This document shows, piece after piece, positions 2,313 through 44,918 of a DNA stretch of 64,000 nucleotides. Position 1 is the stretch's first letter. Every line of letters begins with the position of its first letter. Below the pieces are notes generated by a model that saw nothing but the letters and a program-made list of their open reading frames with translations, searched no databases and was not told where the DNA came from. Source of the DNA: Fomitopsis serialis (taxonomy: Eukaryota; Basidiomycota; Agaricomycetes; Polyporales; Fomitopsidaceae). The position numbers and the translations under genes are program-made. The DNA lies in contig NW_025955108.1 of assembly GCF_022376445.1 (NCBI RefSeq), positions 1-64,000 of the forward strand, in the 5' to 3' direction.

Positions 2313-2682
2313 ACTAGTGAAGGTTATCTTTGCTCTACCGCGCAAGCTCCCTGCGGTGCAAGGCGGAGGGCCTGCACCTCCATGGTGGCCACGGGGTCCG
2401 CTCGCGTATGTAGAGTGGTACACTCGCTTCGCGCCTGCGGCTGACCCCTCCCACTTGATGTATTCGGTGAAGAAACCGCCGTCCTCAAGCAATGGTCTGC
2501 TGCAGGGGAAGATTATTCCCCTGTCACAGATCCGGCAATCCTGTCAGCTTACACCCATTTTCCCTGGCGGTCCTCGCGGCACTGTTCCCGACTCCTGGTC
2601 ATCGGAAAATGTGTTAGAAATGGCTAGTACTTTCTACGTTAACAACTGGGGTGGATTGTATGCATACCAAACACTTTGGTAG
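2313..2682 (+). pseudogene. Plavaka transposase, last exon only (copy P1)
   Basis: This is the C-terminal exon of a Plavaka-type transposase, the DDE-superfamily, CACTA-like DNA transposase of Agaricomycetes. It reads VKVIFALPRKL, then YVEWYTRFAPAADPSHLMYS, IIPLSQIRQSCQLTP and the closing NNWGGLYAYQTLW before the stop. The same blocks close the copies ending at 25935 (+) and 35983 (-), which identifies it. Everything upstream is missing because the S element abuts the exon, so this copy cannot make transposase. PAG-A begins 185 bp downstream on the same strand, the same order as at the other two Plavaka copies. Confidence 0.85.
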
Positions 2683-2867
2683 CCTCTAATAACAAGTACA
2701 GTTAATCCCATGGTATCCGGCGCTAATCGCACTGCGGGCGTCACACACGTTGTTCACAAGCCTTATCAAAGACCACGTCTCTGCATAGAGTCTTCAAACT
2801 GTTTGGCAAGCTCTCTGCTTGGACTCTGCTCCCTCGATCTTCCGCACCACCCCGTCAACCTTCCACC

Positions 2868-3895
2868 ATGCCTGCTCTCACCTCCGCTACAGTCTTCTAC
2901 ATGTCCACCTTCCTTCCATCTTTCCGCGATGTCTGCAGGAATACGGTGGCTTGTCGTAACGCCCCTCGGCCAGGTTGCGCCAATCATATCACTCTCGTCG
3001 CTGTATCCCGTTCAACCGGGCTGGGTACGCTATGGTGCTATGTACATTACACAGCTCTCTTGTGCTGCTGGATACTGACACCATCATACTGTCAGTGCCC
3101 CTTATCTCACGTATGCGGCACCCCACAGAGCTTGCCAGTGCTGCAGCCCGACCAGGCAGACATTGTGATCTCACAACCCTACATCAACGCAGAGCTACCG
3201 CGAGACTGGGAAGACGGGTACATCTTCCTCGGAGGGGTTCACGCCTGGCACCGAAGTGTGGGGTTCCCGCTGTGTCTGCGGGAGGAGGGAAAGAAGGCGG
3301 TTGTGGAGGTCTTTCTCTACTATGAGGTGTGTCATTATTTCTTCCCAAATGTTCCCCGACACTCAGGGCGAGCACACAGAATTTCCATGGGCCGATGATC
3401 CTGCCCCTTATGTGCCGCATGTACGACAACCACATCGAGTTTCCGTTCTGGCAGCCAGTTACGGAGCAAGCCCTCCCTTGCCTCAATCGCTGGAAGCGCG
3501 ATCCTGACGTGTTCCCCGTCCTATTCAAAATGTTCAATGCCGAACAACGCAAGTGGCTGCCCATCCCTTCCATCAACGAGCTCATCTGCATCCCCCTTCC
3601 CTTGACCAACGTCATCATGATCAAGTACGCACAAATCTCTGCGACACCTTGGCACCACATGTACGGCTTCGGAATCGGACCCCGGGCTTCACGCCCATTG
3701 AGCAACCTGCTCGCCCGGATGTACGGCCTTCGGTACATCTGGCCGACAGGCTTCCCCCTCCCACGCAGCCAGATTACTTTGGCGCCCACCATAGTTACGC
3801 GCGGCGCATGCAACATCCGTCTCCTTGTAACCCTGTCGGAGGGCGAGCCGGGTTACACCATGGAGAATGTGGAGGGTGCTGAGACCGAGGACTGA
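2868..3895 (+). CDS. PAG-A: intact three-exon gene of the Plavaka-associated family
   Basis: I do not recognise this family. Exons are 2868-3041 (58 codons), 3096-3326 (77) and 3380-3895 (171 plus stop), 306 aa in all. The two phase-0 introns are 54 and 53 nt (GT...AG). The model is supported by the same exon breaks in seven relatives here. The start lies in a good context (CCACCATG) after a CT-rich stretch (2766-2867) like a fungal promoter. Conserved blocks are NHITLV...GLGTLW closing exon 1, a Cys codon opening exon 2, YIFLGGVHAW and VVEVFLYYE closing exon 2, then LPLMCR, QPVTEQALPCLNRWKRDP, IPLPLTNVIMIKYA and YIWPTGFPLPRS in exon 3. There is no signal peptide, membrane span or known catalytic motif. 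It may be a second protein of the Plavaka element or a host gene carried along. Confidence 0.75.
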
Positions 3896-4191
3896 TCATG
3901 GGTATTGTAGTGCCGTCTCTTTAGCGATGTACTGTACCATATGTGTTTGGATATACATTCTATTGAATTACTCTACTCGTTGGAACCGCGCTGTTTGAAA
4001 CCGTGCGTCTCCAGTGCGGGATTCTACGCCTACAAAATTGGGGCCCGGGGGCGCCAATGGGTCCGGTGTTCGGCGCTAGTGGTAAATTAAAAACTTCTCA
4101 CGCCTTGTTCAACGCTCTCGCATCGCTTTCAAACTCTCTGAAAACGCTTTCTCTTCCTCTTATCCTCTTCACCATCCACCTGTCCACCATC

Positions 4192-4428
4192 ATGGCTTCT
4201 TTGGATCCTCGTGTTCAATTCCACATCTCTACGCTCATTCCTTCCTTCAGCGATGTTTGCAAGAAAGTCAAGCGGTGCCCCCATGTGCCGAACGGTTCCC
4301 TCAACCACCTCACGGTGGTTGAGATATCGAGGACAGGTCTGGGGACCCTGTGGAGCCATGTGAGTGACAAATTCCATGATGAGTCTTGTTGGATACTGAC
4401 AGAAACATACATAGTGCCTGAGGACTGT
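4192..4428 (+). pseudogene. PAG-B, 5' part (exon 1, intron 1, start of exon 2)
   Basis: Exon 1 (4192-4359, 56 codons) matches PAG-A: HISTLIPSFSDVCKKV, LNHLTVV and GLGTLWSH, followed by a canonical GTGAGT donor at 4360. The start has ACCATCATGG context and lies behind a CT-rich leader (4100-4190). Intron 1 ends at ACATAG, and exon 2 opens with TGC about 4415, then is cut by the LINE that begins after 4428. The 3' part resumes at 10813. The LINE insertion and a stop in exon 2 make it a pseudogene. Between PAG-A and this gene (3896-4191) I see only the leader. Confidence 0.8.
4417..4428. repeat. Target-site duplication of the LINE, left copy
   Basis: CCTGAGGACTGT occurs here and again at 10813-10824, a perfect 12-bp duplication immediately outside both ends of the LINE. 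Removing the element and one copy restores a continuous start of PAG-B exon 2 (Cys-Leu-Arg-Thr-Val). Confidence 0.93.
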
Positions 4429-4667
4429 TGTTTTTGTTGTTGGTTCCCTTTATTGTCACTGAGGGCGAAGCCCTATGTAGACATTACATGCGAAGGTCTG
4501 GTCTATGTATTCGTGTCCGTTGTCGCGTAGCATCGCCGTCCGCCGAAGCTTCGGGCTGGTGGGTTTGTGTACCGTAATATATGCAATGAAATGGACTGGT
4601 GGGGAGAGGGAAATGGAAAGTTCGGAGTCCGAGGTTTGTGGTCCGTGCGCTGCGCGCAATCTCTGCA

Positions 4668-7600
4668 TTAGCGTGTCCGTCCATCTCCAGCCTTTGCGGC
4701 CTTGTCCGGGTCCGAGTCCTTCAGCGTCAGGTCTCCGTAGGCGGCCGCGAAGCGGCCGGTGTCATGAATGTATCGGAAGAGGTGTGTGAGCAGGTTTGGC
4801 GCATTGAGAAGGTCTTTTATCGAGCGAGCTGCAGGACCTGCGTCGCGTGCTAGACGGTCTCTATGTTCGTTGTGGGCCGGACACTCCATGAGGAAGTGGT
4901 ACACCATCTCGCGCGTGGTACGGCAAGACGGGCACAAGGGTGAGTCTTCCTTATGGATCCTAAACAGGTATTTCTGAAGCGGAACATGCTCAGTGCGAAG
5001 TTGAATGAGAATACTCGCCTGTCGTCGGGGCAGTCTTCCTGCCAGTTTTCCGTATTGCTTCGATGGCATCTCTGGGTCTATCCGATCCATCCTCGCCGCT
5101 CGGGGCGACTCCCTCCACTCCGCCTTTGCCAGTCGTGTGAACCTCTCGTTATGCATCTGCCGCACTCTGGCAAGACTGGCCGGGAGCTTCTCCTGCAGCC
5201 AGCCTGGGAGGTCCTTGACTGGGCTGCTGTCTCCTCGCACCGCTTTCTTCACCTCCACATCCGCCAGCTCATTCCCGTCAATGCCCTTGTGTCCGGGGAC
5301 CCATCTGAGTGTTAGGTCGATGTTAGGATGTCGTCGTTCGAGTCGCTCGATTGCGCCCAGGAGTCTGTCGAGCATGTAATGCGCCGGGTGAGGTTTCCTA
5401 TTCTTTGATGCGTGGAGGCATGCCAAGTTGTCTGCCGCCGCGGATGCTTTCGCGCACGAAATCTCCCAGTGTAACAGCGCGATGCCCAGGTTCAGTCCCA
5501 CGATCTCTCCCTCGTAGACTGTATGTCTCGCTGATGGCCCGAGGTGATATCGCAGGACTTTGGGCTCGCCGTTTGGTACTACCAGTACCGCTGCCGCTCC
5601 GACTCCATCGTCAATGTCCGAGCCATCTGAGTATATCCTCCATCCTTCTTTCCTTGCCCAGATCTCTTCGTCAGCTGCCGCGTCTTCCTTCGAGGGTGCG
5701 ATTGAGACTCTGAAGGGCGGCCGCCAGCTTGGGGGAGGCGTACTGCCTCGATCGTCTCCACGTCCTTGGGGTCAAGGTCGTATGCGCCCAGAATCTCGTG
5801 GAGAGGGCTGCGGTGTCGTTTGACCCATCGCGCAGCTTGCTCGACGTGACGGTGGAGGGGTGAGAGGTCGGTAGTGTGCATAACCTGGTAGCTTCGTGCA
5901 TTATCAACTTATCAACCAACAGATGGAAGGGGAGAAGGTTCAGGTGCGCAGTTAGGGAGTCAGTGGGCATTGATCTCATCGCGCCCGAGATCATGAGGCA
6001 GGCTTGACGGTGTACACGCTCGAGCTTTCGGATTACTCCGACAGACCCGTAACGCTGTTTGCGGCCTTCCATTTGTCGCTGTGGGACAAGCCATACACTC
6101 GCCGCGTACAGCATCGCAGGTATGAGCATCTGCAGGTACAGGGACTTCACATGTCTCATCGGGATCCCATGTTTCGGGCGTGCAAGGTGGCCGAACTGCA
6201 TGAGCCATGTCGTGCCCTTCTTCAGGGCATACTCGGCTTGCTTTTTGAAACACAGTTTACGGTCTATCCAGACCCCAGGAACTTAGCGTCCGCCGAGGGT
6301 TGCACTGACCCATCTGAGAGGTCCAGCGAGGGACCCATGTCGTCGTTCGCAAGGCTCGGGTCAGCGTGCATGAGGCATAGCTTCGAGATCTCGAAGCGAG
6401 AGTTCCGCGTGCGGGACCACTCCTTTGCGCCGCCTGCGCGCTCCATGTAGCTCCGTAGGGTCGAACACGTCGCGTCCAAGTCCTTGCCCACCGCTATTGT
6501 GGCTACATCATCAATGAAGCCCAGTGTGAGCTCTCCCCTTTTCTTGTCAGCACATTCCAGTAGCACCAGATTGTAGACTTTGTACAATAGGACTGAGAGT
6601 GGGCATCCCTGATCTATCCCACTTAGGATGACGAACAGGTTCAAGACAAAGTCGTCAAACGACAACCATGTCTTTCGGCCATGGAGCTTTTCTCGTAGCC
6701 AGTCGACGACTGCTTTGGGTACGCCACGCATACGGAGCTCATGGAACAAGCGCTCTGGGATAGCACTGGGGAATGCTGCCTCCACGTCCAAGAACAGGAC
6801 AGAGGCGACCTTCTTTGCCCGCCAGGCATCTCGGATCGTCTTGGTCAGTAAGTGTAGTGAGTCAGTCGTTGTACGCCTGGCTCGTCCCCCAAAGTGGAGA
6901 TTGGGGAACAAATTGAGTCTCTCGAACTCGTATTCGACAGTCTCGGCGACGCATGACGAGAGGATCTTGGCCATGCAGCTCATGAGCGCTATGGGCCTAT
7001 ACGACTTCGCAATCGAGTAGTCGTTTTTCCCCGGTTTTCGTAACACAACCGTCGTGGAGAGTTTCCACTCCTCGGGTAGTAACGCAAGTCGAATGTAGCA
7101 CGGAATAGGGACCGAGAATTGGGACCAATAGATCCGCGCACCTTTTGTAAACCTCGTTAGGTATTCCATCGGGGCCTGGGGCTTTGAATTCCTTGAGGCG
7201 GTTACACGCTGCGTGGATTTGGTGGTCCGAGATGTGCGCAAATTCGAAGGCGGGGGCGGGTAGTGCTCAGTATTAGGGTCTGGGAGTTCGAGGTCAGGAG
7301 GGGCTGTGGGAAGAACATCTCATAGAGGACGCGACTCTTCTCCTCGTTCTCGTGTTCAAGGTGGGCGCTGCCCGGGCGATGTAGCGGCGGTACCCTACTC
7401 TTGCTGCTGTCAGACGATCCTGCGCAGATGAACTTCCCTATCGTCCAGACTGACTTTGCGTCCGCCTCTTCGAGCCACGCCTCCCAGTGCGCCTTCTTGG
7501 CTGCGCGTACCTGGTCGCCATAGCGGTTCCGTATTTTCCGGTACTCTGCATGTATGGGGTGCCTAGGGAACTCGCGTTGCTTGAATGCGCGTCGTCCCTG

Positions 7601-8599
7601 TCGCCCGACCTCTTTCCGCATTGAGTTGAGCTCCTTCGAGTACCATCGCTTGGCGAAGGGTGGCGGTTTAGTCCCGGGACTGTCTCCTGGATTGTTTCGG
7701 TGAGTGTACTCATGAGCAGCGAAAGTGTCTCATTGAAACTCTCCTTCGTGTTTAGGCAGCCGTTGGGGATAGGTACATCCTCCAGCCGGATTGCGAGCTC
7801 TGTTCGGAACTCATTCCAGTCAACTCTCCTAAAGTTCCGGAATGTGCGGGGGCTGATCGGGGATGTCGAGTAGGAATGTCGTGCGGATGGGGAAGTGGTC
7901 CGTGTTGGGAGGGCGCAGGTCCGCGGCAACATCACATGACAAAAGGCAGTCCTTCAGGCCTTCCGTCGCAAAGACATTGTCTGGGCGAGTAAGGTTTTTA
8001 GTACGCGAAGCTACGAGGGTGGGGATACCCTGCGGGAGGAGCATATGCATATCAAAAACACTCAGCATGTCAATAAGCTTGTCTGCTTGGTCCAGGGCTT
8101 GGTTCGTGAACAAGTGGGAGTTCCGCTCATCATCCCAGCACGGGTGGTGACGGTTGAAGTCCCCGAGCCAGAGTATGTGGCGCTTGGGGTCCTCGTCCTC
8201 GTCTTGCAGCAACTTTCGCGACTCCCTCGACAGGACGGCTTGCGCAAGATCGCTATCCTGGGGGTTGTACACGTTAAAGATGTGGATCGTGGACGTGGCT
8301 AGGCATAGGGTGACAGCTGTGATATCAGGGGAAGCAACTGGGATCGCTGTCCAAATATTAGTAGATACGCGTTTATTGATTAGTATAACAGATCTGGACG
8401 TAGCCTTATTATCCTTGTGTCCAGTAGGGTATGTCACGATCCAGTCGGAGGCAGCGCGGGTGTTATTTTAGTGATCTAGGTAGGGTTCTTGCAGGGCTAC
8501 AACATCGAAGTCGGTGATGTCATGGAGCAGGGCCGACTGGGCAATGTTGGACTTGTTCACATTCGCCTGACAAACCCTTAGTTCTCTAGGTTGTTCCAT
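4668..8599 (-). pseudogene. LINE ORF2: endonuclease, reverse transcriptase, RNase H (broken)
   Basis: The start ATG (8599-8597) overlaps the end of ORF1 in another frame, suggesting coupled translation. An AP-type endonuclease follows (FDVVALQEPYL, then LWLGDFNRHHPCWD and TDHFPI), but an in-frame TAA near 8468 interrupts it. Reverse transcriptase lies at about 7150-6300 with FLDVEAAFPS, GIDQGCPLS and LGFIDDVA, so the catalytic aspartates are kept. RNase H follows (YSDGSDIDDGVGAA near 5640, then LRWVPGHKGIDGNELAD). The C-terminus has a Cys/His cluster, CPSCRTTREMVYHFLMEC. Frame changes occur near 7850, 7650, 6260 and 5550-5700. It would copy LINE RNA at the nicked target site, but this copy should be inactive unless some breaks are read errors. 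Confidence 0.88.
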
Positions 8600-10660
8600 C
8601 ATCGTTTACCTTGTCGAAGTAGTCCTCACTTGTCGCCGACACGCGCGAGCCGGGGCACGTCGGCGGCAGGGAGCGGCTGGTGAAGCCGCCTTCGCCAGTC
8701 AAGGTGGACTGGCGACGACCATCCGCCGTGCGGAAGCTGGACGTTCGCGGCCGGGTTGGGCCAGCCGCTACACCTGGGTTCGAGCCCTGGCCGGCTCGGG
8801 TCCAGCCCTGGTCCTGAGTACGCTGACTCGGGCTGTCGCGACGGTGCGGTGGAGGGTCACGCAGACGGGGGTCGCGAGCTTGGGGATCAGGTAACGGCTC
8901 GTCGCTCCAGTCACCTCCAAGGCGGCTCGCCCTCGACGGGTGCATGTGTCGGTGAGTCGCGCCAGATGTCTCTGCACGTGGGGCCTCCGGAGGTCTCTGG
9001 GGTGCTGCAAAGTCGCGGAACGGGAATGTGGGCACGTCGGGCACGTAATGCTGCTCCCAGGATGCCGGGTCGTCAGCGATGGGGAAGAATCGATACTGCT
9101 CCAGCGTGTTTGCACGCTGGATCTTCCGGTTCGCCTCGATGAAGGCGGGGCAGTAGCGGGACCAGGAGGTGTGGCCCGCTTCATTACAGTTGACGCAGTA
9201 ACACTGGAACGGGCCTGCCGGAGTGTCGCACTTTTGTGTCGTGTGCTCGGGGACGTGCACATTCCGCACTTCGGTGTTCCCTTGCAGTCGAACGCCATGT
9301 GGCCTGGTTCCAGGAGCTGGCACTTCATGCAGCGCCGGGCCTCCTTAACCAAGCGCCACACATTCATCTTCCGTCCGAGGTACGTGAGGCCATTGACGAT
9401 CACGTCATTGGCCCGTCTTGCGTTGCTGAACTTCGCAATTGCATAGGCCGTTCTCTGATTAAGCTTTCTTTTGTCAATAGGTTTAATCCAGTGTACGACC
9501 ATGAGGTCGCGTTCTTTCCATCCGTTCTCTTTTTTGAGCTGTCTGTACGCCTGTTCGCTCGGGACGAACGACATCGGCATGCCCTGCCAGACGACCGCAT
9601 AATAGCGGGCTCGTACTGTTGCCTCTAGGCCAAACTTGCCAGTGAAGGCCGCCAGATGCTTCTCCAGCCTCAGCCAGGTTACCACCTCTTTGGAGCTTAG
9701 CTCATACAGGATGCCCCCGTTCTTGAGCTTTTGCGCGGATACGAATCTCGCGCCCCCTGGCGCAACCATTTCTCCCTCGTTCGCCATCATATCAAGAGCA
9801 AGGTTGGCCTTCGTGACCAACTCCAGTTCTGTGAGTGGAGTTCCATCCTCCCTTGTCCTCGACTTCACATCAATCAGCATCTGACGCCCTTTGACGCTCT
9901 CCCGCGCCATCGTCGTAGCATGCGTGATTGGCAGTTGGTGCTGGATTGCGGCCGCATAAGTGGGCCATCCTCCAGTACCAACTGGCTGGGCACCTCCCGA
10001 GTCCATCGGAGCAGCATACTCCTGGACAGGTGGGGGTGCCTTCCATGCCTCTCGTGTCTCTCTCAGTACGTCCTCCCATTCTCCTCGTCGCTCATCCACC
10101 ATCTCCAAGTCCTTCGCCAGCTTCGTCTGAGACACAGCTAATTTGCGTACCTCCTCTGTCAACCTCCCCAACGTTCCATTGAGCTCCGTCGTCCACTTCG
10201 TCTGCTTGTCCGCCATCTCCTCGAGGCGGTCGATCTTGCCCTCTCCTAGTTCGCCCGGTTCACCATCGTCCTTCTCTGCAATCCGCATGAGGATGGGGCG
10301 TATGTTGTCCAAGACTTTGGCCGCCGGGCGGTTGTCGCGGATAGCCTCTGCATAGGTGGCGAAGGCGTATATGGCCGCCCGTACAGTCGCCTGATTACTT
10401 GTCTCTGCAGCAAACCTCAGTCCCTCCACCAGCGCGCCCAAGGAGGGCTGCGACTCCTTTGCAATCAGGGCTCGTCGTAGTAGGACCTCCTTCGCTTTCT
10501 CGTAGGTGTCTACTGTCTCTCTCTCTGGCTGTGTATCAGTCTGCAATGCTGAGGGGGTCGACCTCATATTCGGTCGCTCGCCGGCGCCTTTCGCGACTGT
10601 CGGTGACGCCGCTGTTTTCGCTGCCTTAGACGTCAGTCCACTTCTTGTGGAGTTCGACAT
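8586..10660 (-). pseudogene. LINE ORF1: gag-like RNA-binding protein with zinc knuckles (one frameshift)
   Basis: About 690 codons if one frame change between roughly 9290 and 9230 is bridged. The N-terminal half is charged and partly coiled-coil-like. A central domain (around 9700-9350) is followed by a zinc knuckle CMKCQLLEPGHMAFDC and a second cluster, CYCVNCNEAGHTSWSRYC, which is only in frame after the shift. Cys/His knuckles of this type bind the element's RNA in the ribonucleoprotein. The C-terminal tail is rich in Arg, Pro and Ser. Its stop codon overlaps the ORF2 start by 14 nt. Confidence 0.85.
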
Positions 10661-10812
10661 TGAGTCTCTACTGTGTGTAGAGTTCTAGATTTATTGCCTA
10701 GAGAGCCTGTAGTGGCTCTTGCCGCTGTCCTGACGTCCGTTTACCCCTCCCGTCAGAGGTTCGGACCGTGGGAAAATTGCCAGAGTATGAGCGTTAGAAG
10801 CAAAGAGGGATC

Positions 10813-11731
10813 CCTGAGGACTGTAAAACCCTGCCGTACCTTGCCCAGCAAGTTGCAGCCGAACGACGATGATGTTGCCGCGGCGCGCCCATCCATCAAC
10901 GCTGTACTGCCGGAGGAGGGCCCAAACTGATTCATTTTTGTCGGCGGCATCGAGGTGTGGCACAAGAGCCCCGAATTCCCAGAGTGCCTTCGAGGGACGG
11001 ACGAGATAGGAATAGTGGAGGTATTCTTCTATTACCGGGTGAGTTTGTCAGTCTCTGCGCGTATGTTTACAGGGCTCAAAGTAACTGGGCAGGATCATGT
11101 TGCGCCCATCAAGCTGCCCCTCATGTGCCGTGTACATGGGGACTTGGAGATAGAGCTGCTGTTCCGCCAGCCGGTCACCGAGGAGGTCATTCCATGCCTC
11201 AATGGCTGGAAGAGGGATCCTAAGGAGTACCCGGCACACTTCGAGATCTACAACGTCCAGCAAGCTAAGTTCATTCCCCTCGGGTCCGTCAACGAACCCA
11301 TTCACATCCCCCTACCCCTTCGGCACATCATCCTCGTTAAATACAAGAGTATCTATGACACCGTGTGGCCCCTCTACTGGGCTAAAGGGATCCACCCTTC
11401 TGGCGCTCTGGGCGGAATCCTCGCCAACATGTACCTCCGCCTGTCCATCTGGCCGGTGGGCTTCGCTTTCCCTAGGACCCGCATCAAAGTGTTGTCCATG
11501 GTCCGGGTTGAAGGCAACCACCGGCCTCACGTCTTCACGCCAGCAGAGGGCGATCCGGACTGTACCGTGGAGAGGATGAACACTGGAGAAGATGAGGTCT
11601 CAGTGGATGCGGACTCTGATGTGGACACGGATGTGGACTCGGATGCGGACACGGATGTGGACTCAGATGCGGACACGGATGCGGACACGGATGCAGAGGA
11701 TTGGGATGGTGAGATGGCTGTCAGCGACTGA
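10813..11731 (+). pseudogene. PAG-B, 3' part (rest of exon 2, intron 2, exon 3)
   Basis: Resumes directly after the LINE. Exon 2 continues to 11038 with FIFVGGIEVWH and IVEVFFYYR. A TGA at 10928-10930 interrupts it where PAG-A has a tyrosine-containing DGYIF block. Intron 2 runs 11039-11092. Exon 3 (11093-11731, 212 aa) is fully open: LPLMCRVHG, RQPVTEEVIPCLNGWKRDP, PIHIPLPLRHIILVKY, LSIWPVGFAFPRTR. Exon 3 is about 40 codons longer than in PAG-A because of an Asp-rich repetitive tail. An intact exon 3 beside a broken exon 2 suggests the gene died recently. Confidence 0.8.
11600..11700 (+). repeat. 6/12-bp minisatellite coding an Asp-rich tail
   Basis: Units of GATGTGGACTCG or GATGCGGACACG are repeated about eight times at the end of PAG-B exon 3. 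They encode alternating Asp-Val/Ala-Asp-Ser/Thr, an acidic low-complexity tail. It is absent from the other PAG copies, so it arose by local expansion. Confidence 0.85.
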
Positions 11732-12056: not shown

Positions 12057-13196
12057 ATGTCTTCACCGCTTCACTCTGAACTGTGCTTTCTCTTCTCCAT
12101 GTTCGTACCAAGCTTCCGGCAGATATGCAAGGCGACAAGGACATGTCCGTGGCACAGTCATCAATCACATTACGGTGGTTCTGGTGTCTACGGAAGGGAA
12201 GTATCTAGGGACATTATGGGACTTTGTGAGTCATATTTATATTACTCTGGCCATCAGTACTAACCCGCGGTCAGTGTCCGGTATACAATAAAGACCGCTG
12301 TGACACCGTACGAAGTCTGATCCAGCCACGTCCCAATGAGTTGAAGGCTGCCCGTCCTTACCTTGCTGTGTTAGAACCTTCCGACCGCGAGGACCGCCTG
12401 ATCTATGTTGGGAGCATTGAATCGTGGAACCGGAGCGTTGGATATCCAGTGTGTCTGCAGGGAGAGGTGAGAAAGGGAGTGGTAGAGGCTTGCATTTACT
12501 ACGAGGTGCGTTACAATCATTTTTGCCTACTAGTAATCGTACACACAGCTCACCAACGTTATAGGACCGCCATTCACCTATGACCCTACCACTCATGTGT
12601 AGGATATATGACGAGGAACTTGAGCTCCTGTTTCACCAGCCGATTACCGAGCAGGCATTCCCTGTGCTCAACCCTTGGAAGCATCATCCGGTGCAGCCCA
12701 AGTTCGAGGTCTTTGACGTGGAGCGTGAGGCTTTCGTTCCGTTCTCCCTGTGGGAACCACTCCGTCTTCCTCTCCCCCTGCGCCGCATCCCAGTGTTCAA
12801 GTACGCCAGCGTCACCAACATACATTGCCCGCAAGACATTGCCCTAGATGTTGGTGATCTCGGCCCTATTTCCAGCATGAAGGTTGAGATTGGCACAACC
12901 TTCCGTTCATATGGCCGACAGGCCTTCCTACGCCCCGCACCTGCATGCACTCCAAGAATGTTGTGAAGAGCCGCGGGTACCCGTTTCCGGACGTCTTGGA
13001 GGGCCCCTTGCAGGGCCAGAAGGTATATGGTGAGGAGACCATGGAAAGTGGAGAACTAGCGGTGGAGGAGATGCCCAATGGTGGCGAGAATGGCACTGAG
13101 GAGCGGGACGAGGTGCAGATCTGGGAGGTAACCTCCACCGGCAAAGAAATTCCGTACGTTCCTGACAGTGCTGGGGGGTACACTCGTGGGGCTTGA
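12057..13196 (+). pseudogene. PAG-C: third tandem family member, two frameshifts
   Basis: Exon 1 is 12057-12225 (SPLHSELCFLFSMFVPSFRQ, then TVINHITVVLVS and LGTLWDF in the next frame). It is 169 nt long, so one base is extra compared with the family. Exon 2 (12275-12505, 77 codons) matches PAG-A in length and is clean: CPVYN..., LIYVGSIESWNRS, VVEACIYYE. Intron 2 is 12506-12564. Exon 3 (12565-13196) reads LPLMCRIYDEELELLFHQP and RLPLPLRRIPVFKYA, then shifts frame near 12890 before IWPTGLPTPRT. A hydrophilic tail of about 70 codons follows. The leader (11955-12056) is CT-rich like those of A and B. The two single-base shifts could be sequencing errors. If real, the gene is dead. Confidence 0.75.
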
Positions 13197-27323: not shown

Positions 27324-27475
27324 TAGGATTCGACCGGGATGAGTATGATTAGTACATTGTGCAGCAGAATTGATTGTTCACGTCTTGCTATCTAATGTAC
27401 TACTTAGTATCAAAGATTGTTTTACGCCCACTCACGCATGTCGGCGAGTCAAGCATTAACACATCACGGTTACAT

Positions 27476-35500: not shown

Positions 35501-35820
35501 GTTCCTATCAATCATCGAGTGAGCAAGGATGTGTTTGTTGTATGGGATTTGAATGTTGCATAGTTGTGCCGGGCAGCACAACATATCATGCATGACACAC
35601 TGGAACACCCAGATGTCCTGTGAATATACTGTAGAGACAGTGGACAGGTACTCACATAGTGGAAAAGTACGCCCAGGTTCCCCCTCTCCAGGCAGACCAC
35701 GGTTGCGAGGTTGCCTTCGGACTGGATGAGACATGATCTTGGGCGGGACAAGGCTTTTTCATAAACCACAAGAAGTGGCGCGAGGATGGCGAGGACACAA
35801 AGATCAGTGAGAGCAGACAT
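35501..35820 (-). pseudogene. PAG-G: exon 1 and start of exon 2, downstream of Plavaka P3
   Basis: Exon 1 (35820-35656, 55 codons) ends with NLATVVCLERGNLGVLFHY and a GTGAGT donor, as in PAG-E (NHVTVVCLEREHIGELFDF). After an intron ending TTCCAG, exon 2 opens with the family's Cys codon (CVMHDMLCCPAQ). It is lost within about 110 bases, where plus-strand PAG-H begins. The ATG lies 162 bp beyond the stop of Plavaka P3 on the same strand. The stretch 35821-35982 is this spacer. Confidence 0.65.
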
Positions 35821-35982: not shown

Positions 35983-36529
35983 CTACCAGAGTGTCTGGTA
36001 TGCGTACATGCCCGCCCAATTATTGAGGTAAAATCTATCTGCGATGTCAAGGACACTGTCCAAACTCCATTCACTAGGTACCATCCCGCAAGGGCGATCA
36101 GGAAAGGAGGGAATCAATTGACAGGACTGTCTGATTTGACTCAGCGGGATTATGGCCCCCTGAGGTAGGCCATCACCGCGCCTGGGGGCTTTCTTCAGTG
36201 AGTACATGAGGTGGACTGGATCTGCTTGCGGGGCGAAGCGGGTGTACCACTCCACGTATGCAAGTGGTGTTTGCGGCCAATAAGACGGTGCTGGCGCACC
36301 GTGATATGCATTGGACAGTTTTTTGGGGAGGCAGAATATTATCTTGACCCGCCCTCCCCTTGTACCTAGGATATCGTAGTTAGAGTTGGGACTTGTAGTA
36401 CGTAGGACCGGACAGAATGATATCTTACCGAGAACTCCAGTAGACTCACTTAGTCTCAGCCTCCCCCTTCTCTATCACAACTACTGTGTCAAAGTGGCTC
36501 ATGCACCTGACGCGTGCCGTGGTGGGTAT
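35983..36529 (-). pseudogene. Plavaka transposase C-terminus (copy P3, last part)
   Basis: On the minus strand: HFDTVVVIEKGEAET, an intron of about 70 nt (GTAAGATA...CCTAG), RVKIIFCLPKKLSNAYH, YVEWYTRFAPQADPVHLMYS, IIPLSQIRQSCQLIPSFPD and NNWAGMYAYQTLW plus stop. It matches P1 and P2 block for block and is open in this exon. The upstream side is the end of a copia LTR at 36530. The rest of the gene is at 41276-42876. Confidence 0.85.
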
Positions 36530-36969
36530 TGTTGGCTGCAGTGCACCTCAGAGCGATTCCAAAGGCCTAAGTCGAGCTCTGTAAAGTCTTTTTATTCAAA
36601 GAAGCAAAGATACACACCTAAGACGAGCTCTGTAAAGTGTTAGGGACTCAGAGCTCGACGAGGCGGACTGTCTACGGTGTGCGTTACATAAGGTGACCAT
36701 AAGTGTACAGTAGAAACAGCCACAAAGTCGAACTCAACGAAGCAGTGAAAAATCGGATCAGTGCAGGGGTTCAAATCCCTGAAGATGCAAACATTATGGA
36801 AAATGGTAGACTGAAGGGAATGACGTCGGAAAAAGTACAATATGCACGGTATAGTGATGGCGTCCATGTAGAATAAAGGAGAACACACCAGGACGTGTTC
36901 CACAACTTGGACAGGGCAATGGAGCTCAGAATAATTCGCAGAAATGCGGAATAAATTCCGAGCTCAACA
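36530..36969 (-). repeat. 3' LTR of the Ty1/copia element (440 bp)
   Basis: Ends TGTTG...CAACA on its own strand. A purine-rich tract (AGGGTGGAG) lies directly inside it at 36970-36978, as expected for the plus-strand primer site. It is homologous to the LTRs at 42877-43267 and 57116-58046, but carries about 49 extra bases between two copies of GAGCTCTGTAAAGT. The flanking GGTAT (36525-36529) has no partner at the other end because that end is lost. Confidence 0.85.
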
Positions 36970-39900
36970 CTCCACCCTGACCTGTCAAGTCCCCAGCCCA
37001 AGCATCTTCACCATCTCCAGCACCTTCGGTTTAGCCAGCGACTTCGTCAGGATATCAGCAGGCATGTCAGAAGTGCGAAGGTGTATGATCTCAATTCGAC
37101 CTTTGGCGACTTCGTCTCTGAGCCAGTAGAAGTGCAAGTCGAGGTGCTTCATGCGTCCGTGGTGCTCGGAATTTTTCGCAACGGACAGCGCGGGAAGATT
37201 GTCAATTCGAAGCTTGGAGGCAAGGGAAACGTCGAAACCAAGCTCTGTGAGGTGATTGCAAAACCAGAGAATTTCCTGGCCTACTGAGACCGCTGCAACG
37301 AACTCTGCCTCTGTTGTAGAAAGCGCCACAATCGTCTGAAGATGACTCGACCAAGAAATCGCACCTGTACCCATTTTAATGACGTATCCAGAGGTGGATC
37401 GACCAGTGTCAGGGCAGCCAGCATGGTCAGTGTCGGTGTAGGAGGCGAAAATCTCGGAATCGGACGAAGGGGAATAGGTGAGCGTGTAGTTGAGGGTTGA
37501 TGTATCGGAAGAGGTGCCTGACCACTTTCCAGTGCGTCATGCCAGGGTTCTTTGTAAAATGTGCCAGGTTGCTCACAGTGCGTGCAATGTCTGGACGAGT
37601 TGCCACAGCAAGGTAGAAAAGCGAACCCACTGCCTGATCATATATATGGGATGTTCTGCATCTCCCTGACCTCGGACGACATCTTGGGAGCCTTGTCTGC
37701 ACTGAGACGAAGGCCAGGCTCCATCGGAGTGCCCACAGGGTTGCAGTTTGCGAAGCCATAGTGCTCCAGGATGTCGAGAGCGTACTGCTGCTGCGAAATC
37801 GAAAGCGAATGCTTCGCTCAATCACGCTCAATATTGACTCTTAGGATCCAGGACGTCGGCCCAAGGTCCCTGAGCTTGAAGTGTGTACGAAGGTCGTCCT
37901 TGACGCGCTGGATTGTGGTTTTCGACTTCGCTGCAATGGTGATATTGTCGACAAAGACAGGGATGATGCTGCGCACTCCATCTCGCAGGTAGACCCAGAC
38001 ACTGTGCTCACAAATCAGCCACGAAAATCTGAGTTTTGTGAGTACCTCGTGCAGCTTTTCGTGCCAGCAGCGTCCAGCCTGCTTCAGACCGTAGAGGGCC
38101 TTCAGAAGACGCCATACCCGGTTCGGAGTTTTCTGCTCAAAGCCCTCTGGCGGCTGCATGTACACCTCCTTCTTCAGTTCGCCGTTTAGATAGGCTGAGG
38201 AGATGTCCACAGACTCGAGCTCGAGGTCCTCCAGGGCTGCAAGCGCAAGAATGGCTCGAATTGACGCCCACTTCGGTGTAGGAGCGAAGGTCTCATTGTA
38301 GTCGAAGCCAGGACGCTGGGAGAACCCTTTGGCGACGAGGCGGCCCTTGTACCGCTCAATTGAGCCGTCAGCATTGCGCTTGACACGGAAAACCCACCGG
38401 GAACCAATGGCTTTGCATCCAGGAGGCAGCTGAACGAGCTCAAAGGTCCCATTTTCAACGAGGGACTGGATTTCGTCCTGAGGAGCCTTGAGCCACTTCT
38501 CTCGCTCATCTGGGGGTCGCTTCATCGCGTCTGCAAAGGTCCTAGGCTCGCCGAAGTGCTCCTGGTGCGCCTTGAACGCATTCTGGGCCACAGGCTCGAA
38601 CGCAAAATCGAAGGCTTTGTCGTAGGACAAGAAATCCTCGCTTTCAGCGGAGTACACGTGCTCAACGCCTGCGATCATCGCGTCAAGCGAGCAGCCAAAG
38701 GTGTCCTCATGTCCATCTCCACGCAGGAAATTGAGTTCGTCATCGCTCTCCGGAGGTAGGAGAGGGTGGATAAACAGGCTCTGGAAGCGGAGCAGGTGCA
38801 GCAGGTGGACTCAGTGGCGCTTCAATGAGAGGATCAGGCGACGGAGAATTGCGCTGAGGCGTTTCGTCGTGTTGGCCAGGCTGGGGCGTCGAGGCAGGGG
38901 ACTGAGAGTCGACTCTAAAACACTGGGGCAAGAGATTTCGCCGCTGCAAGTCGTCATCATTCAGGGAGCCTTGAAAACACGTAGAACGAGCTGGGAGTTG
39001 ACGTGAAGGCGCAGGATATGGCCTGTATCTGTCATAGTTGTCAAGTTGACAATGAACTGCGGGACACTGTGGTGCCAGCGGAGGTGCAGCAGGTGCTGGG
39101 CGAACGTGCTGGATGGTCAGGGGAAGTTTTGTGGAATCCTGGGGTGCAGGGAGCTGATTTGGCGGTGGAGATGCAGGAGGTGCAGGATCATCAGAGTCGT
39201 CTCCCCCCTGATCATGCAGCTCTGGCGCATCAGGGGCATCTTCAGCGGGTTCGCTGTCGTCGAGAGGGAGGCCGAAGACATGTATGAAGGACGAATTCCT
39301 GGGAAATAGCATTCATCAAAGACAGCATGCGACGAAATGATGAATTTCTTCGCAGCAGGGTCCCAGAATTGCCAGGCCTTGGTGCCCTCAGGATAGCCGA
39401 CAAAAATACACTTTCTCATGTGCGGCTGCATCGCGTTGCGGTCCCTCTTTCGTACCAACACATAGGCAAGGCAGCCAAAAATGCGGAAGTAGGAGACATC
39501 TGGCTTGCGCCCATCGCCTTTCCAGGCAGCCCAGGGCACACCTTGCAGGGACAACGTAGGCATGTGGTTCCTCATGTGGACGAAGGTGGAGAAGGCATGG
39601 CCCCAAATCGACGGAGGGAGCTTCGACTGAACAAGGAGGGCAGTCCCACCCTCAGCAATTGTCCTATTAACTCGCTCTGCAACACCGGGGTTTGTCTGGT
39701 TCAGTGTGCTGACGCTGGATGCCATGCTGAGCGCAAAAGTCGACGAACAGCTTGCCCATGTACTCCCCACCCTTGTCATTGTGTGTAGCCTTCAGGACGA
39801 GGCCTAGAGCGTTTTCGGCGTACGCCTTGAACGCCTGGAACACAGAGAATGTGTTGCTTTTGCACTTCAGGAAGGCCACAACCCAAAACCTCGAAGAGTC

Positions 39901-41275
39901 GCAGATAAATGTCATCCAATAAATGTGCCCCTCCGGCGTAGGCGTTGGGAGAGGCCCTTGAGGTTGGTGTGGACGAGGGTGATGCAGACAAAGTTTCTGG
40001 ACGCAAAATGAGGGATACAGTGTCGATGCAGCTTAACAGCTAGGCAAGGCTTGCAGATGGGATCAGGTGTACACTTCGAACGGATGGTGAGGCCGGAAAC
40101 GAGCTCCTTCGAGTGCGCCATTCGGAGGTCGTCGAGGTTGACGTGTGAGCAATGCTGGTGCCAAAGCGCGAGGTCCAGATCGCAAGTCGTCGAAGCGGAC
40201 AACACAGTCTTCGTTTAAGACACAGTCTGGCCTAGCAGGTAGCCGACGTTGTGCTCGTTAACTCACGCCTCAAAGCGGAGTTCTCTCTCCTGGTAGAAAA
40301 ACGCGTTCGCAGCTTGCAGCTCGACGACATAGCCCTTCTCGTGTGTGAGGTGAAAAACGGATAATAAATTTCTGGCAAGTGCAGGGACATGAAGGACGTC
40401 ATGCAGTACAACAGCTGGCAGTAGAACTCCGTCCCTCTCCACAGGTTGAACGACCACAGACCCTAGTCCAGCCGAATAGACTACGTGTGAGTTGGCGAGG
40501 CGAATGGGGATGGAATGGGGAGAGTAGGAGTGAAACCAGTAGAAAGCCAGGAGGCACAATCCGAGGTGGATAGGAGGGCAGAGGCGCAACCAGCACTCAC
40601 AGTGGCCGCTCCAGCGGACTCCTGGGACACATCCTGCGCATCCTGGACGGTTTTCGACGCTTCCTTCGCCTCCCTCGTCTTGTCCTTGCCCTTTCCAGGG
40701 CGAAACTGCGTGTGCTGCGACACCTTCTCCTTCGCTTTGAAGCTAGCATCGCGTTTGGAGAAGTACTGCTCCTCGGAGTGGCCAGAGCGGCTGCAGAAAG
40801 CGCAGATGATGGCGGCAGCGACCTGGGATAGGACCGGGATTGTCGATAACACACCAGGCTGATTTTCTAGGGCGACAAACATGTCCTGGAGCGTCTCAAG
40901 CATGAGGGTGTCGTCCAGCAAGAGGGTCTGGCGAATTTGGCGGGCAGGGCGCGGATTAAAGCCATCAGAACGAGCTCATCGTTGAGTTTAGCGATGTTGA
41001 AGTCCTGGGGACGAAGGGCTTTCATCTCGGACTTGAGCTGCGAAGCTCGCGTCGAAAGCGTCGACAGGGACTCATCCTTGGCCTTGGAGAGGCTCAGGAG
41101 CGCATTGTAGGTGTTAAAAGGATCGTCTCTAATCGCCTCCAGATGCATCTGCTGCTCCCTCTCCACACACCCCCAGATCTCCCCAGCTGCCAGGTCCCTC
41201 CTGTTCTCAAAATTGCGCCTATCTCGGCGTTCTGAGGCGTCCAGGGGCTGAGTGAATGAAGGCCTGGTCTCTGAG
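36970..41275 (-). mobile_element. Ty1/copia retrotransposon body, 5'-truncated, inserted in Plavaka P3
   Basis: Gag-pol without a 5' LTR. On the minus strand: gag (about 41260-40870, WGCVEREQQMHLEAIRDDPF), a knuckle CAFCSRSGHSEEQYF whose last Cys is Tyr, GAG-pre-integrase and integrase (40205-39117; SSRFWVVAFLKCKSNTFSVF, THNDKGGEYMG, VAERVNRTIAEGG), RT (38678-37818; KGRLVAKGFSQRPGFDYNET, SVDISSAYLNGEL) and RNase H (37374-36985; TEAEFVAAVSVGQE, ADILTKSLAKP). The order INT-RT-RH defines Ty1/copia. The RT box reads FVDNI instead of F/Y-V-D-D, and the first integrase aspartate is Asn (LVHTNLKG). Several frame breaks occur. It is inactive. The 5' border with Plavaka lies near 41265-41285. Confidence 0.88.
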
Positions 41276-42876
41276 CCCTTCTGAAGACAATGCAAAGAGC
41301 TGCAAGAGTTTGAAGTCTGGCCTCCATGTCAAGCCTCCCCATATCCATGCATTCTGTTCTCGGAAGGGCCGCAGGTGGTGCCTCCCCTTTCACACCGCTA
41401 TCCTGTCCTCCTGCATCATTGTCATCATCTTCATCCCCGTGAGCTTCTTCTGTGTCCTCCCAATCAGCTCCATGCTGGAACTTCTTGTACATCACCATCT
41501 TTTCGTTCTGCAACACCCACTTCATCATCTGCGGGAACTCATCATGATGGTTTGATGTGCGCCACGGATGCTCCGGCGAAGTCAATATGCAGGCGCTCAA
41601 ATAGCTCGGTGTTGTAGTTGTCGGTTGCACCAAACAGGTGGATTGACTGGACGTAGTGGAGTAGAGAATGTATCTTGGGTATATTGAGATCTTCGCATAT
41701 CCCAAGGTCGACTAGAACTTGCTTGTGCTTGTGAAACATCGTCAAGGTGTCTTCTAGGTATTTGAGAGTGGTGTCGTCGTGAGTCAGGTACTGGGCAAGA
41801 TAAATAGAGTCTAAGAGTGAGCGGAATGCGAGTAAGAGCGGCTTGGGTATACCACCTATGAGGCAACCAAGGAGAATGCGCGCCATCTCCTTTCGTTCCT
41901 TGCCAGATATCTGTGCCAGAGAGGAGATCCCATTTTTGAAATGTTGGGTGCTATGGGCCAGGGGAAGGCAGCGGAGGTGATTGTTAAGCTCGGATGGCGT
42001 GAGGAGCTCCTGGCACCAAGTGACCAGGTGCTTGAAGATGCCCTGGTACAACTGGTGGAGGACGTCAGGTGTTATGGACATGTGGATGTTGGAATAGTCC
42101 AAGTCCATCCAGAAAGGTTGTTTCACCATGCCACTGACGTCTTCCAGCATGCACTTGGCCTTGGTCGCACCCGCACCGAGGCCCTCCTCCCAAGTGTTGT
42201 GAATGACATCCTCTGTGTGCTCGGACATGCATTGATCACTTGCTCGCTCAGCCTCCAGCTTGTCTGAGGGCACTTGCACTTAGGGTGCATTCCATACTTG
42301 GAACAAGTGACTAGGCACTGCTCCGGGTAATCAGCCACGTAGCATGCTAGGATGGGGTACAAGCGCTGAACTGCACCATCACCAGCAGTAATTTCCAGCC
42401 CCTCTGTGCCAGCTCAGATGAGAGGCTTCAAGATTATGCGCATGGCGGCATGAAAGATCTTTTGCCCTCTGGCTTTGCATTCACGTTTGGTGAGGTTCTT
42501 CTTTCCGATCTTCGAGACCGGAAGGTACCCGAGCAGAATGCATGCATGTTCCGAAGGTTTGTGGCGGATAGCTCTGGGAATGTTGCCTAGGGTAAGGTAG
42601 ACAGGGTATGCAGCTTTGTTGCCCAAGAACTGCGTAAGTTGTGTTTTGTCTGTCGCTATTATGATGGGTGCAACAGCCGCACCCTCCGGTAGATAGCTCT
42701 GAGAAATTCATGGCGAAGATATGTTAGCTATGTGCGCCAGCACAGTCCCGTAATCTTTGGCTTACCTGGATTGTGTTCCACCACAGTCCAGTCCACATTT
42801 CGGTGTAGATTTGGACCGCTCAGAACAGACCTGCTTTGGACGATAGACAATGTGGCTGGCATGCGAGGGATTGCCC
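41276..42876 (-). pseudogene. Plavaka transposase core (copy P3, first part)
   Basis: On the minus strand: HIVYRPKQVCSE, YTEMWTGLWWNTIQ, an intron, IIIATDKTQLTQFLGNKAAY, PVYLTLGNIPRAIRHKPS, LYPILACYVADYPEQCLVTC, PDVLHQLYQGIFKHLVTW, HFKNGISSLAQISGKERKEM, NIPKIHSLLHYVQSIHLFG and FERLHIDFA, then an acidic stretch up to the copia junction. It has a TGA near 42416, a one-base shift near 42268, another near 41545, and one between HIVYRPK and YTEMW. It is truncated at 42876 by a solo LTR, so the zinc-finger end is missing. Same family as P2, different copy. Confidence 0.88.
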
Positions 42877-43267
42877 TGTTGAGCTCGGAATTTATTCCGC
42901 ATTTCTGCGAATTATTCTGAGCTCCATTGCCCTGTCCAAGTCGTGGAATGTGTCCTGGTGTGTTCTCCTTTATTCTACATGGACGCCATCACTATACCGT
43001 GCATACTGTACTTTCTCCGACGTCATTCCCTTCAGTCTACCATTTTCCATAATGTTTGCATCTTCAGGGATTTGAACCCCTGCACTCATCCGGTTTTTTC
43101 ACTGCTTCGTTGATTTCGACTTTGTGGCTGTTTCTACTGTACACTTATGGTCACCTTATGTAACGCACACCGTAGACAGTCCGCCTCGTCGAGCTCTGAG
43201 TCCCTAAGACTTTACAGAGCTCGACTTAGGCCTTTGGAAATCGCTCTGAGGCGCACTGCAGCCAACA
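42877..43267 (+). repeat. Solo copia LTR (391 bp), opposite orientation to the copia body
   Basis: TGTTG...CAACA ends are exact. It is homologous to the LTR at 36530-36969, inverted relative to it. The flanks TGCCC (left) and CAAAC (right) do not match, so there is no target duplication. The left flank is the Plavaka N-terminal region and the right flank is PAG-F exon 2. It keeps its CpG dinucleotides. Confidence 0.88.
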
Positions 43268-43576
43268 CAAACCTCCTCCATGACCTCGTGTTCCGGTTGC
43301 ACCTCGCTCAGAATGGCGGGGCACTCTGTCCCGTGGTAGGATGGACACTAAAGGGTGTCAGTAGTAGTCAAAAGCAAAGATTAAAAGACTTACGTAGTCA
43401 AAGACCTTGCCAAAGTTGCTCCTGCTGTTCTCCAGGCATACGACCGCGAGATGGTACACCTCCAAGCTTTTCTCTAAGCTGGGGCATATGGCGGTCAACT
43501 TTGCAACCACTGGAAATGGCGGGAGTACGGGCGGGAGTAGGCTGATGAGTCTCTTATCAAATCCGAGACCAGCCAT
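43268..43576 (-). pseudogene. PAG-F: exon 1 and part of exon 2, cut by the solo LTR
   Basis: Exon 1 (43576-43394, 61 codons) reads LGFDKRLISLLPPVLPPF and YHLAVVCLENSRSNFGKVFD, with a GTAAGT donor. Intron 1 is 46 nt (43393-43348). Exon 2 opens with the family's Cys codon (CPSYHGTECPAILSEVQPEH) and stops at the LTR after about 80 nt. Exon 3 is absent. What remains is open, so truncation is the visible defect. The stretch 43577-43830 between F and E is short and shows nothing else. Confidence 0.7.
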
Positions 43577-43830
43577 TGAGACGAGAAGCGGTTGAGTGTG
43601 GTGAGTGAAGCGTAAGTGTGGTACGCAAGTTGAAGGAAAGCAATCTTTAAGCGCTAAAGAAGCGGTGACTAAGACTGTTTTGAGGCGCCCACGCTCACGC
43701 AGCACGGCTAGTAGGTGGTACAAACGATGTTATTGTGTATACGGGCTCAAACACAATACAAAAATGGTACACAGCAATGAAGACTAATAGTACATTTGAA
43801 CAACTCCACGTAACCTGAATCTCCCGGCAG

Positions 43831-44918
43831 TCAAACGTGAATGTACTCGGACATCTCCCAGTTGTAGTACGGGGCCCGACACACCCCGTATCCATTCTCC
43901 CCAGGCCCGGGACGCATCACTACAACACCCAGCGGCATCCCGAAGTCCCTCACAGTCCAGTCAGCTGCCACGCACTTGCGCAGAATCTGCCGCCCAGATG
44001 TAGGGCTGCTGCGTGAAGCTGTGCTTCATGGGGCACGTAGGGGCCGAAGCAACGGCACCCGTGGCGCGGTCGCTCGCGCGGAAGGTAACACTGACGTTGG
44101 TCAGCTTGAAGGTGGGGATGTGGCGGAGGGGGAGGTGTAGGGTGAGGCGTTCGTTTGGGAGTGTGGCGGTCGGGATGAACGTCTGCCCTCTGACGTCGTA
44201 GAGGTCAAATCCTGCAGCCCCGAGGCCCGTGTGGGGCAACGGCTTCCATGGGCTCAGCCCCGGGAACATCTGCAGCAGCAGAGGCTGCTTGGCGGGACCA
44301 GGAATCTCCATCTCATGTCCTGTCTCATCCACCTTGCACAGGAGGGGAACGGACACCCGGTCATCAATGTCCTGGTAAGTTCCATTAGAAACAGAGGTGA
44401 CATGAGGTGTAAGGGATGTACCAAGACGATGACTACTGTCTCCACTACCGCCACTCTGGGAGCCTCCTCCTCCGGGTGGTACACCCGCAACAAACTGGGG
44501 ATTCTCCCCCCCATCACTCCGGTGGAAATCCTCGAACGCCCCCACGTAGACCCACCCACCCATCCTAAAAGGCCCCTGAAGCCCAAAGTATGACTCGTGG
44601 ACTTGGTCCAGGATGACCCTCTGCATCTCCAGCGAGGGCTGCCACCAATCCGGGCACCGTACCATGGTACAGCCCATACTCTCATGCATCATGCACTGTA
44701 GTACATCAGCCACGTCGCACCTGTACATAGAAACGGACACTCGCGAAATCAAACAGCTCTCCAATGTGCTCCCTCTCCAGACACACAACCGTGACATGGT
44801 TCAGACCGCTTCCATGCGGGCATTGCCTCGTGCAGCCTCGGGTTATCTTTTGATAGGACGGGAGGCCATTTTGCACCAGTATGTTGATCAGGTGCGAGTC
44901 GATGCGCGAGAATGCCAT
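43831..44918 (-). pseudogene. PAG-E: three-exon family member with two frameshifts
   Basis: Exon 1 (44918-44745, 58 codons, as in PAG-A) has FSRIDSHLINILVQNGLPSY and NHVTVVCLEREHIGELFDF. Its donor is GCGAGT, a GC-type donor exactly at the family position. Exon 2 (44695-44422) starts with Cys, reads CPDWWQPSLEMQRVILDQVH and FRMGGWVYVGAFEDFHRS, and shifts frame at a run of seven C (minus-strand G) near 44506-44512 before LLRVYHPEEEAPRVAVVETV. Its 274 nt equal PAG-D's 91 codons plus one. Exon 3 starts at 44371 (VSVPLLCKVDETG, PLRHIPTFKLTNVSV, PYIWAAD) and shifts near 43985 before GVVVMRPGPGENGYG, ending at 43831. Shifts in homopolymers may be read errors. Confidence 0.7.

Follow-up and report, generated by a model that had tools for sequence, protein, structure and literature searches.

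PAG genes lie behind the Plavaka transposases of a Fomitopsis serialis window

The DNA stretch analysed here (the window) comprises bases 1–64,000 of contig C55 in the 66.2-Mb, 806-contig genome assembly of Fomitopsis serialis, a wood-decaying polypore (Polyporales). It carries three broken copies of the DNA transposon Plavaka, whose transposase domain (PF18759) was detected with E values of 7.8e-109 and 4.6e-57, together with members of a gene family, PAG, that a sequence-only reading of the window had placed directly behind the transposase. That placement is correct: every Plavaka C-terminus in the window is followed on the same strand by a PAG start, at a distance of 185 bp (2682 to 2868, plus strand), 266 bp (25935 to 26202, plus strand), or 162 bp (35983 to 35820, minus strand). 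The number of copies was overestimated, however. Instead of the proposed nine, our profile scan recovered seven copies or fragments within 2313–44918, with starts at 2868, 4192, 12057, and 26202 on the plus strand and at 35820, 43576, and 44918 on the minus strand, and an eighth outside that range (Table 1).

Only copy A is intact. It encodes 306 codons in exons of 174, 231, and 516 nt that are separated by phase-0 introns of 54 and 53 nt, and as a query it returned 104 genome matches (best non-self E 1.2e-60). The three-exon layout with phase-0 introns of about 50 nt that had been ascribed to the whole set is clear in this copy, but the frame of the copy at 44.9 kb could not be brought into it. 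In all seven copies whose junction can be placed, exon 2 opens with a Cys codon (TGC or TGT), as had been noticed before. Exon-3 profile scores amounted to 212 bits for A, 266 for B, 162 for D, and 128 for the 44-kb copy, with a profile built partly from A; such similarity within the family goes far beyond chance. A, B, and C stand in tandem in front of a Plavaka 3′ terminus, an arrangement that had gone unnoticed and that is common elsewhere in this genome, with up to five genes per array; B is split into exon 1 (4192–4359), an exon 2 that starts at 4415 and continues at 10813–11038, and exon 3 (11093–11731). Truncated copies lie at 35.8 and 43.6 kb, the former with a weak exon-3 remnant at 35235–35306, and the two at 44.9–43.3 kb sit upstream rather than downstream of the third Plavaka. 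Given that the elements in the window are broken, the window alone cannot place PAG inside an element, and we thus turned to relatives from the same genome (C-numbers denote contigs).

Complete elements enclose both transposase and PAG

Element limits were set where similarity stops in alignments of C345 with C62 and C124. They delineate a complete element of 21,484 bp (C345:7000–28483) that holds a Plavaka transposase and five tandem PAG genes. Its 5′ end, CATCAGGAAAAAC at 7000, and its 3′ end, GTTTTTCCTGATG at 28483, are flanked by CCCA on the left and CATC on the right, that is, by a 2-bp CA duplication. On the plus strand, the transposase extends from ~17.6 kb to 20.88 kb; PF18759 matches it in two pieces (E 6.6e-55 and below cut-off E), and its exon 1 shares 47% identity with the exon of the window that has a C2H2-like finger. 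Behind the transposase come PAG1 to PAG5, at 21049–22284, 22565–23744, 24037–25151, 25373–26515, and 26886–28071. All five are open across three exons (331–371 codons, introns of 48–67 nt), PAG1 having a frame-shifted tail relative to C62, and PAG5 stops 0.4 kb short of the 3′ terminus. No terminal 7-mer occurs between the C345 transposase and the last PAG. The minus strand encodes, from left to right, a DUF6532 gene (8239–9167; PF20149 with E 2.4e-9 for two joined frames and 1.9e-5 for a third, both over the cut-off), a putative Tet_JBP-like dioxygenase (frame 10822–11223; PF12851 with E 8.1e-6, and 25.6 bits against a cut-off of 34.9), and a gene in common with window positions 15508–15708.

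PlavakaB elements have 5′-CATCA..TGATG-3′ termini and 2- or 3-bp target duplications, according to the available text of Kojima 2025 (PMC12730594). The ends of C345, C62, and other paired ends have this form, and so does the window 3′ end at 13562–13574. The terminal 13-mer is found 92 and 87 times on the two genome strands, its reversed form never. Exact 2-bp duplications flank 11 of 15 end pairs (C345, C124, C158, C72, C146, C223, C129, C63, C237, C219, and C22) and are absent from C62, C76, C29, and C23; the pair C23:34309/52140 was judged by eye, and possible pairs in C103 and C169 are not among the 15. Calculated without C23, the chance of 11 duplications in 14 pairs at one in 16 is 2e-11. 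Six of the end pairs hold PAG (C345, C124, C158, C72, C146, and C62), five of them with a duplication. Five-gene PAG matches are present in both C62 and C124, and exon-3 matches of five genes each in C779, C121, and C425.

PAG is hence a gene family inside a mobile element. Transposase and PAG lie together between paired ends that are flanked by target duplications, as the sequence-only reading had suggested might be found, and Plavaka ends separating the two genes—the finding that it had named as fatal to its proposal—were not encountered in this genome.

Several elements merit separate mention. C62:64039–85019 and C124:447204–468529 have a common 5′ flank, CAGGTATCGAGG, and different 3′ flanks, which may reflect recombination, a duplicated segment, or an assembly that contains two haplotypes. 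Since C62 has no matching flanks—we counted it among the pairs without a duplication—and its 5′ flank is that of C124, it may be a recombined or duplicated copy. The 9.2-kb element C158:28248–37472 has both of its ends, is flanked by a TC duplication, and contains PAG genes; as no Plavaka core scored inside, it may be a non-autonomous deletion derivative that retained PAG. Near the terminus C10:13414–13426 of another CATCAGG-ended element lies a 252-codon open frame (plus strand) with no Pfam match, so other Plavaka-type lineages may have accessory genes of their own.

In its Plavaka transposase, termini, 2-bp duplications, and putative TET/JBP-like gene, C345 resembles the PlavakaB elements of Agaricomycetes; unlike in C345, neither a tandem PAG array nor an opposite-strand DUF6532 gene is mentioned for these in the available text of PMC12730594. 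Section 3.2 of the same article reports no TET+ Plavaka from Polyporales; should its sub-threshold Tet_JBP match hold, C345 would be such an element. Nor is a gene behind the Plavaka transposase mentioned in the available portions of PMC12730594, PMC9674265, and PMC8290104, and PAG is apparently undescribed.

PAG is tied to one transposase lineage

To quantify linkage across the genome, we used 118 Plavaka loci (125 matches to the C-terminal exon, of which 14 pieces were merged into seven loci) and 57 PAG arrays, obtained by merging matches no more than 2.5 kb apart, with some overlapping exon matches left out; 30 further PAG exon places were added for the counts around the Plavaka C-termini. 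Of the 118 C-termini, 31 have a same-strand PAG start no more than 2.5 kb downstream, none has one upstream, and one has a PAG on the other strand; 0.13 are expected from random placement of the 57 arrays. Where exon 1 was detected, the gap between Plavaka stop and PAG is mostly 166–270 bp. Counted from the arrays, a scored Plavaka core precedes at least 24 of the 57 at no more than 6 kb and in the same orientation, and no array is preceded by one of opposite orientation; 24 is a lower bound, since the core search scored 123 of 323 candidates. Five arrays have a scored core within 6 kb on their downstream side, 15 only at a greater distance, and 13 have none on their contig. Distances to termini, for which 100 of 179 terminus places were used, cover 36 arrays: in 18, the array end is at most 3 kb away from a 3′ terminus in the correct orientation (0.49–0.67 kb in 14 of them), and three have a wrongly facing terminus within 3 kb.

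In light of these data, it is extremely improbable that the arrays are an independent repeat, simply adjacent to Plavaka in regions rich in transposable elements. The 13 arrays on contigs without a scored core would fit such a view, though C62 among them does hold Plavaka; constant strand and spacing, the near-empty upstream and other-strand controls, the uninterrupted stretch from transposase to last PAG in C345, and above all the complete elements with their duplicated flanks contradict it. Likewise, the picture that would have spoken against the original proposal, PAG mostly as lone host genes, is not what this genome presents.

The association is restricted to part of the Plavaka family. 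PAG accompanies 29 of 39 loci whose exon is at least 60% identical to that of C345, 2 of 60 at 50–59%, and 0 of 19 below 50% (Fisher p 7e-17, a value that treats copies as independent and is hence overstated). From 16 C-terminal exons we built a transposase tree of 14 rows, omitting C126 (same as C58) and the distant C146. A single branch (support 100/99) divides eight rows with PAG from six without, and the PAG-bearing side includes C412, one of the two PAG-bearing loci under 60% identity. PAG is therefore limited to one transposase lineage and is not a general Plavaka gene. The idea that it is the second protein of Plavaka survives insofar as PAG is an element gene; it has to be narrowed to one lineage, and to tandem, diverged paralogues in place of a single gene.

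PAG proteins share a Cys/His motif

Neither PAG-A nor the D exon-3 frame matched any Pfam family at E ≤ 1, in keeping with the earlier description of the family as unrecognised. The B exon-3 frame gave a NESP55 match (E 0.22) that is far under the cut-off and was dismissed as chance. PAG thus represents a further protein family unrecognised by Pfam. Searches of 5.8 billion proteins, which detect relatives that share 5-residue words and are present in gene models, found 13 proteins: 11 from Fomitopsis serialis, one from Rhodofomes roseus (P0008; 41% identity across 90% of PAG3), where the gene is C8Q71DRAFT_728102, and an ENA protein without a name that resembles PAG1 with its introns read through. 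No further named species is represented. Over 81% of the query, PAG A and the F. serialis protein B0H18DRAFT_959583 are 100% identical. No host homologue outside the PAG family was found by these searches, nor were PAG relatives in one scan of viral contigs. Because shared words and gene models are needed for detection, the true range of PAG may be wider.

A motif, C-x(7-10)-H-x(17-19)-C-x(4-8)-C, spans the exon 1/2 junction. Among 23 aligned proteins (near-identical copies retained; the splice model C126_48692 dropped as spurious), C29 is kept in 23 and H40 in 22, while C59 is present in all 21 rows covering that stretch, each with a second Cys 5–9 residues further on. The splice search demanded the exon-2 Cys for 14 aligned rows and ranked it first, without demanding it, for the five C345 models; it is also present in the NCBI models P0006 and P0011, which are independent of that search. 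G53, Q160, N171, P257, and R264 are retained in 23 of 23 proteins, Q75 and E129 in 22. The CHCC pattern would suit binding of one zinc ion, but does not by itself point to DNA binding.

Low-confidence structure models hint at a ubiquitin-like (beta-grasp) domain at residues ~120–226. In two predicted models, the order of strands and helices would resemble that of the ubiquitin-like self-association domains of DIX, PB1, SATB1, and TDP-43. Foldseek against the PDB returned staphylococcal superantigen-like proteins (E 0.003–0.1, TM ~0.2, rmsd ~14 Å), a kinship we rejected because the model is poor and nothing but the beta-grasp part recurs. A PDB profile search gave chance matches only (Cry4Ba, E 0.23 and 0.29).

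Array members are old paralogues, and diverged copies show constraint

Two main clades make up the PAG tree. Copies A, B, and C fall into the first, along with those from C58, C404, C412, C616, and C188; the second unites the C345 array, D, the 44-kb copy, P0006, P0010, and P0011 with the Rhodofomes protein, whose place is among PAG2–5 of C345. The array members are therefore old paralogues. Their order varies between arrays: A, B, and C of the window group with the second, first, and third gene of C58, respectively. The dN/dS ratio is 0.42 for C58:52148 versus C404:7583 (dS 0.62, unsaturated) and 0.26–0.29 in four more diverged pairs, whose dS of 1.4–1.9 is saturating. Between the first element of the window and C345, identity is 67% for the C-terminal transposase exon and 23–28% for PAG-A compared with the C345 PAGs; on this measure, PAG appears to change faster than the transposase, though the PAGs compared are paralogues.

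What PAG may do for the element

With element membership, lineage restriction, tandem arrays, a conserved motif, and constraint on diverged copies all observed, we consider it fairly probable that PAG belongs to the element in a functional sense as well, serving some role in the element's own movement or control. PAG would then be an accessory family of one PlavakaB-type sublineage, seen here in Fomitopsidaceae and placed between the transposase stop and the 3′ terminal inverted repeat, often in arrays of up to five on the transposase strand. Its N-terminal motif, with intron 1 inside, would form a zinc-binding module; the beta-rich centre, possibly ubiquitin-like, could mediate oligomerisation, and the tail is variable and in some members acidic. 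Through contacts that we infer, the paralogues would most likely assemble on element ends or on the transposase. There they would be a further part of the machinery for transposition or its regulation, similar to the TnpA of CACTA elements in role, not in sequence, and would presumably move together with the element.

CACTA and Plavaka transposases are related (available text of PMC12730594). In Spm/En, TnpA binds subterminal repeats and is needed together with TnpD, and its counterparts in other CACTA elements are little alike (available text of PMC2613891). TnpA and PAG alike diverge rapidly and are encoded by a large element in addition to its transposase, and PAG indeed sits in its transposase's own element. 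TnpA, however, is single and arises by alternative splicing with TnpD (PMC2613891), whereas PAG forms separate genes, up to five of them, without detected sequence kinship to TnpA. A specifically TnpA-like role, drawn from this analogy, is possible but on balance somewhat doubtful. We know of no other eukaryotic DNA transposon that retains such a tandem paralogue array, though no search was aimed at this.

Several observations weigh against a role in movement or control. Ten of the 39 close transposase relatives have no PAG within 2.5 kb, and eight of these none at all downstream on their contig (of the other two, C72 carries its PAG at 2.6 kb and a C18 locus at 7.5 kb). C76, a near transposase relative, contains neither PAG nor a clear replacement gene in its 3.6-kb 3′ region. 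PAG is thus dispensable for some elements, or was lost from them. Five diverged paralogues exceed what a TnpA-like partner needs, and the structure models are poor (pLDDT 58 and 41). At the element ends, no PAG-specific subterminal motif emerged: relative to mononucleotide shuffles, CAAG/CTTG words are enriched at nine ends of PAG-bearing elements (mean 6.0 vs 2.3 shuffled) and at 19 others (8.4 vs 2.1), so binding sites may be present there, though none specific to PAG. Finally, dN/dS reaches 0.64–0.83 in three recent pairs (dS 0.02–0.29), indicative of drift; one of the three, PAG1 of C345 and C62, includes the frame-shifted tail, and a fourth recent pair differs by two changes only.

The drift of recent copies and the close relatives without PAG would also be expected of a mere passenger: a host gene that the lineage's ancestor picked up a single time and that was then duplicated inside the element, with no part in transposition. 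We regard this as quite improbable: the protein searches, which reach relatives with shared 5-residue words in gene models, yielded no host homologue outside the family, diverged pairs are constrained, and five-gene arrays not only stay open in C345 but recur on five further contigs. Judged from these ratios, PAG is under constraint along surviving lineages and drifts in dead copies, as expected of a transposon gene.

The main rival to a role in movement or control holds that PAG is an anti-silencing or counter-defence protein that acts on host chromatin or silencing factors, its paralogues perhaps each with targets of their own, by analogy with VANC of the Arabidopsis VANDAL transposons. Both VANC and PAG are rapidly changing accessory proteins of a DNA transposon; VANDAL differs in its transposase, in the VANC domains DUF1985 and DUF287, and in that no tandem paralogue array is described for it in the available text of PMC5735166. 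The putative Tet_JBP-like dioxygenase of C345, the faster divergence of PAG relative to the transposase, and the tandem paralogues, which would suit an arms race, point in this direction. Against it, neither DUF1985 nor DUF287 was found in PAG-A or the D exon-3 frame (Pfam, E ≤ 1), the role would duplicate that of the dioxygenase, and no host target is known; we deem this explanation unlikely. Rather doubtful, too, is a multi-gene system in which up to five zinc-binding, self-associating paralogues would form a hetero-oligomer on element ends or host chromatin, beside the TET/JBP-like dioxygenase on the opposite strand.

Whichever role applies, PAG is a genuine accessory family with clear bounds. 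Its transposon is of a known type, its tandem layout is unusual, and its tie to the element is firmer than the sequence-only reading could know. The literature, as far as its available text goes, names as Plavaka gene content a transposase and sometimes a TET/JBP gene, to which PAG adds. Plavaka makes up a large share of the DNA transposons in some mushroom genomes (Marasmius oreades; available text of PMC8290104), and the lineage-confined PAG arrays offer a direct way into the question of how Plavaka elements transpose or evade silencing. For annotators there is a warning: many NCBI 'uncharacterized proteins' of the F. serialis genome are transposon genes.

Other transposons and repeats in the window

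Table 1 Plavaka, PAG, and neighbouring features of the window
Feature	Position	Strand	Remarks
Plavaka C-terminal exon, copy 1	2314..2682	+	remainder of gene missing; 67% identity to C345 C-terminal exon
PAG A	2868..3895	+	intact; exons 2868-3041, 3096-3326, 3380-3895
PAG B	4192..11731	+	array member two; interrupted by LINE; one TGA
LINE	4428..10812	-	within PAG B exon 2; RVT_1, RNase_H
PAG C	12057..13196	+	array member three; frame-broken
3′ terminus of element holding A, B, C	13562..13574	+	GTTTTTCCTGATG
Part of gene common to C345 5′ half	15508..15708	-	33% identity, 67 residues, E 4e-8
Plavaka N-terminal exon, copy 2	17374..17691	+	C2H2-like finger; Pfam E 3.2e-4, just under cut-off
Plavaka core and C-terminus, copy 2	23336..25935	+	with stops
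PAG D	26202..27323	+	one TGA in exon 2
PAG fragment after Plavaka copy 3 (G)	35508..35820	-	exon 1 and exon 2 start
Plavaka C-terminal exon, copy 3	35983..36360	-	
Copia-type element interrupting Plavaka copy 3	36600..41400	-	approximate limits; RVT_2 at 37821-38810, E 1.7e-60
Plavaka core, copy 3	41424..42953	-	with stops
PAG fragment	43270..43576	-	exon 1 and part of exon 2
PAG copy	43831..44918	-	frame not resolved into open three-exon form
PAG fragment, eighth	48067..48763	+	beyond 2313-44918

The LINE inside PAG B (RVT_1 E 8.4e-16) is bordered by an 11-bp target duplication, CCTGAGGACTG, at 4417–4427 and 10813–10823. Around the copia-type insertion, 36643–36963 and 42883–43110 resemble long terminal repeat ends but are inverted (94% protein identity on opposite strands), and Plavaka is joined directly to copia nearby, a sign of rearrangement. 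Tracts rich in CATGGGTA adjoin the broken Plavaka copy 1 (2213–2312) and the PAG copy at 44918 (44950–45105). The right part of the window contains a long inverted repeat (31802–34946 and 60825–63937) that is mostly 98–100% identical in translated frames.

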